DNA of 64,000 nt from Nostoc sp. ATCC 43529 (GTDB lineage: Bacteria > Cyanobacteriota > Cyanobacteriia > Cyanobacteriales > Nostocaceae). The notes beneath the pieces were generated by a model. That model saw only the letters and a list, made by a program, of their open reading frames with translations. It was not told where the DNA came from and did not search any database. The stretch covers positions 124,001-188,000 of the forward strand of contig LWTK01000094.1 in NCBI GenBank assembly GCA_003326205.1, written 5' to 3'. Below, piece by piece: positions 4,275-45,386 of this stretch (position 1 is the first letter of the stretch; each line of letters opens with the position of its first letter). The translations under genes and the position numbers were made by a program.

Positions 4275-4978
4275 ATGTCAATGATGACAATCAAAGATTT
4301 AGAACGAGTTCAAACCGCTTTTACTGAAGCAGGTTTAGATTACCAACTGGAACTCGAAAATGGGAAGATTTCAATCATGGGCCCATCAGATATTGTATCC
4401 AGTGAAATTAGTAAGTAGGTAGACATAATTAAATGTAAGATTAGAGCTTTGTTCGTAGTCAGCGATTTATCGCTCTTAACAGACGTTTTAAGGACTAAAG
4501 TCCATACTACGAACTTTAGTTTAATTGAGTCCTTCTACTTAGTCGTCTCATTGCCTTTCTCTTTGCTTGGGTAAATCCTCGTCGTTTGGGAAGAGTGTTT
4601 GACTGTGCAGGCGGCTTCATCATGCCAGATACAAATCTCAAAGCACCCGATGTTTCCTTTGTTCGTGCTTCCCGACTTCTCCAAAGTCCTCGTTACTTTG
4701 GCGAACTTGTTCCTGATTTGGTTGTAGAAATTAAATCTCAGAGCGATAAAATTAAACTTCTAGCAACCAAAATTCTAAAATTTATCGAATTAGGAGCGAT
4801 CGTTGGTATTTTAATCGATCCTGATGAAGAGACAGTAACAATTTATCGCTCTACAGGCGAACCTACAGTTTTAGGAAATGGTGACATTTTAGCCATACCA
4901 GAACTTTTTCCTGGTTGGGAATTGTCCATTACTGAATTGTGGCCTCCTATATTTACCGAAGAAGAAACACAAATTTAG
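4275..4978 (+). pseudogene. Uma2-family (DUF820) nuclease-fold gene interrupted by a MITE
   Basis: Two blocks of one Uma2-family protein flank a 126-bp insertion. The 5' block begins ATG at 4275 (MSMMTIKDLERVQTAF) and ends at a stop created in the insertion (SSEISK). The 3' block resumes with SRLIAFLFAWVNPRRLGRVFDCAGG and runs to the stop at 4978. It includes the PD-(D/E)XK core APDVSFV and DLVVEIKS. Deleting the insertion with one TA copy joins the blocks in frame as SSEISSRLIAF. Uma2 proteins are abundant in cyanobacteria and adopt a restriction-endonuclease fold, but their role is unknown. The listed ORF at 4586 is only the distal part and would lack the N-terminal domain, so the gene is probably inactive. 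Confidence 0.85.
4414..4539. mobile_element. 126-bp MITE with TA target-site duplication inside the Uma2 gene
   Basis: The element is bounded by TA dinucleotides at 4412-4413 and 4540-4541. Its ends AGTAGGTAGACATAATTAAA and (reverse complement) AGTAGAAGGACTCAATTAAA match at 15 of 20 positions. The interior is largely palindromic (TTCGTAGT ... ACTACGAA, AGCGATTTATCGCT, GGACTAAAGTCC) and encodes nothing. TA duplication and length fit MITEs mobilised by an IS630/Tc1-type transposase. The flanking gene shows the empty site precisely. Confidence 0.85.
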
Positions 4979-5012
4979 TCAAGAATTTTGGTAGCTACTT
5001 ACTAAACAATTT

Positions 5013-45181: not shown

Positions 45182-45298
45182 GTAGTCTATCGCATTAGTT
45201 CTGATAGGTAAATAAGTTTGTAGTTAGGACTTTAGTCCTTGATTTTTAAGCACTGAAGTGCTTACTACAAACTCATCAAAATTAATGCGATGAACCAC
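45182..45298. mobile_element. 117-bp MITE-like element with TA duplication
   Basis: The ends GTAGTCTATCGCATTAGTT and (reverse complement) GTGGTTCATCGCATTAATT match at 15 of 19 positions, and TA lies at both edges (45180-45181, 45299-45300). The interior forms a long hairpin (TTTGTAGTTAGGACT ... ACTACAAA; AAGCACTGAAGTGCTT). The GGACTTTAGTCC core recalls the 4.4-kb element, though the ends differ. Nothing else is seen in 44983-45386. Confidence 0.65.
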
Positions 45299-45386
45299 TA
45301 GATTATCAGCAACCCTTCATCTTTATTCACATTCCTGGTTTGCATTGAGTATCGAATAGGAACCTAGAATGGCAATTACAGATATT

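Follow-up and report, generated by a model that had tools for sequence, protein, structure and literature searches.

A non-autonomous 126-bp MITE of the IS630/Tc1 type has, very probably, been pasted into a TA dinucleotide of a Uma2 gene in Nostoc sp. ATCC 43529, duplicating the TA and bringing with it a pair of GTAG-tagged hairpins as a passenger. Comparison with relatives and with the other copies in the genome establishes the borders of the element, the TA duplication, the multi-copy family, the empty site in orthologues and the loss of the reading frame. The window, by which we mean the whole stretch of 64,000 nucleotides that was analysed, lies on contig C94 of a draft assembly (8.46 Mb, 113 contigs). 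The split gene and the element are laid out as follows.

4275–4413, plus strand: 5′ part of the Uma2 gene, including the target TA (ORF reading)
4412–4413: left copy of the TA target duplication (a single TA stands here in 11 of 12 orthologues)
4414–4539, plus strand: MITE, 126 bp (57 full-length copies in the genome)
4414–4440, plus strand: left terminal repeat, AGTAGGTAGACATAATTAAATGTAAGA (matches the left end of the IS in locus L127, of IS630 type, at 18/20)
4513–4539, minus strand: right terminal repeat, its minus strand reading AGTAGAAGGACTCAATTAAACTAAAGT (end pattern and end comparison)
4540–4541: right copy of the TA target duplication (orthologue comparison and copy flanks)
4542–4978, plus strand: 3′ part of the Uma2 gene (PF05685, E 3.3e-19)

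Translation of the broken frame now ends at a TAG (4416–4418) within the element, and the Uma2 domain is found mostly in the 3′ part (positions 53–171 of the 172 in the Pfam profile PF05685). When the flanks are joined with one TA, they give a single open frame of 576 nt, 191 codons with a stop at the end only, which reads ...SSEISSRLIAFLFAW... across the junction. An earlier reading of the letters by themselves (the sequence-only reading) had described a 126-bp element with 15/20-matching ends between two TA copies, whose removal together with one TA would make the Uma2 frame continuous, and both statements hold. The insertion would have struck the codons ...ATT AGT AGT... of the gene, which adjoins an ABC-transporter gene of the branched-chain amino acid type.

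The same reading had suggested a search for Uma2 orthologues lacking the insertion. Twelve were found, 11 of them in same-genus genomes and one in a genome from a different family of the same order; all align gap-free through the joined junction, at 80–91% DNA identity, and conserve the frame join. Their junction reads GAAATCAGTAGTCGTCT or near it, with TA in 11 of the 12 (L137 has CA), and what they are missing is the whole 126 bp plus one TA. Most of them also retain the upstream ABC-transporter region; these are therefore orthologues and not just paralogues. More distant Uma2 homologues (L147, L148) are likewise uninterrupted. That the split gene should be the ancestral form, the intact orthologues having arisen by loss of the element, is hardly credible: all 12 orthologues, one of them from a further family, are uninterrupted, the element recurs at 56 further, unrelated sites, and no point in favour of an ancestral split was found. 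A second site of the family, L100, is empty in G013 and G009, yet the bases beside it differ, so this site supports the insertion reading and does no more than that.

Two further observations concern the neighbourhood. Just 3′ of the Uma2 gene, at 4992–5005, 14 nt match the left end of the MITE in inverted orientation; this match was rejected as a second MITE end because orthologues that lack the MITE (L139, L140 and L143) have part of it too. At 1691–1999 of the window, heptad-like tandem repeats are open in both directions, with one strand reading (VEPQKVN)n and the opposite strand (LLRLDVD)n.

The ends of the element, AGTAGGTAGACATAATTAAA and AGTAGAAGGACTCAATTAAA, match at 15 of 20 positions and form imperfect terminal inverted repeats; the 126 bp have no coding capacity. 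Such a match also arises by chance, reached within the 64-kb window by 1 of 296 TA..TA pairs at the same spacing and by 11 of 104,116 pairs at spacings of 60–400, and the terminal repeat by itself is therefore only moderate evidence for an element. Decisive are the matches of the end patterns against their controls, the 57 copies with unrelated flanks and the 12 uninterrupted orthologues. In the genome the 5′ end pattern gave 99 matches (reversed control, 0) and the 3′ end pattern 68 (reversed control, 1), while a search with the MITE itself gave 40 scored matches among 178 candidates. No Rfam match to a structured RNA was found over the MITE (one sub-threshold snoRNA model fell elsewhere in the window), and the MITE was unmatched in plasmid and phage collections, from which records close to this genome may be left out.

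Copy numbers in this genome are taken from searches and are lower bounds. There are at least 57 full-length copies, 53 of them exactly 126 bp long, and 56 have TA on both sides; no two share flanks. The call of a MITE holds, and the copies with the same borders and TA flanks that the sequence-only reading proposed to look for exist in this genome, with related copies in all 34 same-genus genomes searched and in a few others; an exact end-to-core pattern match occurs in Nostoc paludosum FACHB-159. Base choice around the TA is weakly symmetrical (T at −3, A at +4, over the 57 copies). Mean pairwise divergence among the copies is 4.6%, with 21 identical pairs. The window copy is one of a young group: its nearest copies, L002, L004 and L045, each differ from it by one mismatch. 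Because of these three copies, and because none of the 12 orthologues carries the MITE, a recent insertion, as had been claimed, is supported by the comparison.

Whichever way round it lies, the MITE brings stop codons in all three frames at its ends, and insertion into any gene therefore ends translation. For about 31 copies we asked whether joining the flanks opens a frame of 150 codons or more, and only three scored, Uma2 included. The other two sit just after or between genes; the Uma2 insertion is therefore the exception among the copies tested.

Related ends also enclose other interiors in this genome. Four loci (L071, L080, L087 and L126) have the 27-bp left end of the MITE with an interior of CCTGCCT heptamer repeats, variable in number, and end in CTTCTACTTA, so that one terminal repeat is found with quite different interiors. 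A third interior lies between the closely related ends TAAGTAGGTGGACACAATTA and TAAGTAGAAGGACTAAATTAAACC at L113, L118 and L121. At about 371–415 of L115 there is a near-perfect palindrome of about 44 bp, two ends of the MITE type (TAAGTAGTCGGACAGAATTAA...) with nothing between.

The IS630/Tc1-type source that had been read from the TA target, with a transposase presumed to act in trans, gains support as to its type from an IS630-family IS in the same genome, on contig C84. Among seven DDE_3 matches in the genome this one alone (L127) is flanked by ends of the MITE type. The IS occupies 1389–2532 of its locus, TA-bounded with 1,140 bp between the TAs, its left end reading TAAGTAGCTAGACATGATTAA and its right end TAAGTAGCTAGACATGAAAAA. 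The left end of the MITE matches the left end of the IS at 18 of 20 and 23 of 27 positions; the right end of the MITE matches the left end of the IS at 14 of 20 and its right end at 11 of 20. Because the right end matches less well, the MITE is not a simple internal deletion of this IS, and a closer relative, as yet unseen, could be its true source. Sister elements in relatives (L165, L166) show 90% protein identity. The transposase of L166, in one frame, is assigned to the IS630 family (NCBIfam NF033545, E 9.4e-47) with a DDE_3 domain, whereas those of L127 and L165, from different genomes, are both split into two frames at the same A9 run (about 2052–2100 in L127), which suggests frameshifting or slippage and could also be decay.

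We infer that the MITE would be mobilised in trans by an enzyme of the IS630-family group that the 1,140-bp IS on C84 represents, or by a sister now lost or unassembled. The mechanism would be cut-and-paste as for ISY100, a member of the IS630/Tc1/mariner group that inserts into TA, duplicates it and transposes by cut-and-paste in vitro (PMC2170065). The TA target and its duplication are shared with that group, and the IS related to the MITE has helix-turn-helix and DDE domains; unlike the autonomous ISY100, the MITE codes for nothing (PMC2170065). It is quite possible, though we lean against it, that in the same event the MITE was moved by a different IS630-type transposase and not by that of C84, for instance by one of those known in relatives that this genome has lost or that its assembly lacks. 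The poor fit of the right end to the C84 element speaks for such an enzyme, as do the draft state of the assembly, in 113 contigs, and the IS630-type elements of relatives with related ends (L165, TAAGTAGGTAGACATG; L167–L169, TAAGTAGGTCAACC; L177, TAAGTAGGTGGGCATAATTAA), but among the seven DDE_3 matches of this genome only C84 has ends of this kind.

Between its terminal repeats the MITE carries TTCGTAGTCAGCGATTTATCGCT and, inverted, TTCGTAGTATGGACTTTAGTCC, two GTAG-tagged hairpins arranged as REP dimers. The sequence-only reading had passed over this interior, which is less ordinary than the rest of the element.

4451–4514, plus strand: GTAG-hairpin dimer module, GTTCGTAGT...ACTACGAAC (motif search and inspection)
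4461–4474, plus strand: hairpin 1, AGCGATTTATCGCT, 2 nt after the GTAG tag region (GTAG at 4455–4458; fold and copies)
4492–4503, minus strand: hairpin 2, minus strand GGACTTTAGTCC, after GTAG (4507–4510, minus strand; fold and copies)

The DNA fold of the MITE has a z-score of −3.42, part of which is owed to the terminal repeats. Hairpin 1 is kept in 50 of 51 copies scored in this genome; hairpin 2 varies more, its stem being kept in most copies, with double changes from A-T to G-C. This core resembles the GTAG-tagged REP dimers or REPINs (PMC3116915, PMC3733652) in having two inverted GTAG-tagged hairpins with stems of 4–7 bp and short loops, and differs in being enclosed by transposon ends.

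The likeness raises the question whether the element is itself a REP or REPIN moved by a tyrosine (RAYT) transposase, its outer terminal repeats being mere flanking context. The genome does hold two Y1-transposase loci, L230 and L231, of which one scored as a REP-associated tyrosine transposase. Neither offers a RAYT gene flanked by the REP of the MITE core: the REPtron L230 (C32:117089–117759) has a different REP, GTGTAGCCGCGANTTCNANTCGC, on both sides and in 19 copies, and near L231, the second Y1 gene, no matching palindrome was seen. The copies of the MITE, moreover, share their outer ends exactly at TA with unrelated sequence beyond, and the empty site lacks the full 126 bp and a TA, which contradicts movement of a REPIN for this insertion. 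We therefore consider that origin very improbable; in a TA-targeted IS630/Tc1-type insertion the hairpin pair would most likely be a passenger. The Y1 transposase gene of L230 contains one in-frame TGA.

The GTAG-hairpin motif occurs 202 times in the genome and not at all in the control. We read 77 distinct dimers from this genome with their flanks, and 75 lie inside a terminal-repeat element: 43 in the 126-bp MITE family (two of these have decayed ends and had been left unclassified by the script), a share that is inflated because many of the loci were fetched by the ends of the MITE. Of the others, 29 belong to a family whose ends read (C)TAGTGGTCTRTCSCATTA (one reclassified by eye), two to a family ending in TAAGTAGAACG and one to a family ending in TAAGTAGGCGAGA. 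The rest of the sample came from the motif list in contig order, and dimers from that list alone still fall within elements, apart from L234 and L248, the two without visible ends. The module is thus present in at least three terminal-repeat families of this genome besides the 126-bp MITE, and by inspection the visible similarity between families is limited to the module, GTTYGTAGT...ACTACRAAC. The window itself contains, at about 45182–45299, a mini-transposon of the (C)TAGTGGTCTRTCSCATTA family, with ends TAGTAGTCTATCGCATTAGTTCTGAT and, inverted, TAGTGGTTCATCGCATTAATTTTGAT, borders of TA or CTAG and a core of the GTAG-hairpin dimer.

The same palindrome is found in G035, a genome from a different family within the order, where 1,652 occurrences were counted; many of the listed ones form head-to-tail arrays with a period of about 31–35 bp. 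Most other families of the order lack it. These distributions would fit a Nostoc GTAG-hairpin dimer that is a cargo module, having entered at least four terminal-repeat families (ends TAAGTAGGTAGACAT, (C)TAGTGGTCTRTCSCATTA, TAAGTAGAACG and TAAGTAGGCGAGA) and now owing its spread to DDE transposases in place of a RAYT, while the same palindromes stand in tandem arrays by the hundred in a relative of another family. We hold this proposal to be nearly balanced, tipping slightly towards doubt. Nesting of the dimers as such has precedent, since the GTAG-15 dimers of Anabaena variabilis have already been seen within long palindromes (PMC3733652). Those TATAGGA palindromes are the closest precedent for the nested layout: there too REP dimers regularly lie within a longer inverted repeat, and no empty palindromes were found. 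They differ in that the paper treats the palindrome as a target and not as a transposon, and in the sequence of the palindrome (PMC3733652).

An IS630-type MITE insertion is ordinary in kind; the MITE family itself is new. Nezha, described by Zhou in 2008, is reported to duplicate TA and to have long, nearly perfect terminal repeats. It is a cyanobacterial MITE of about the same size as ours, and the difference is between its reportedly long near-perfect repeats and the 15/20 match here. Passages of PMC10969869 and PMC3733652 cite Nezha as a MITE of cyanobacteria. The sequence-only reading had called such an exact reconstruction rare for MITEs annotated only by repeats; a readable empty site is not unusual for the MITEs of cyanobacteria: 15 MITEs of Anabaena sp. 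90 were recognised through interrupted ORFs (PMC3542288). Ours was likewise recognised because it splits a gene, and it differs in having an IS with a matching left end, where no matching IS ends were found for those of Anabaena sp. 90 (type II; PMC3542288). The empty site is nevertheless unusually well supported.

The Uma2 locus cleanly documents a single natural insertion of an IS630-type MITE, with its empty site in a dozen relatives, and thereby fixes the borders and the target of the family. The part meriting follow-up is the hairpin module common to several transposon families. REP-like dimers are commonly treated together with tyrosine transposases; here they nearly always sit within mini-transposons whose ends are of the DDE type, and carriage within such mini-transposons would explain their spread without a cognate RAYT.
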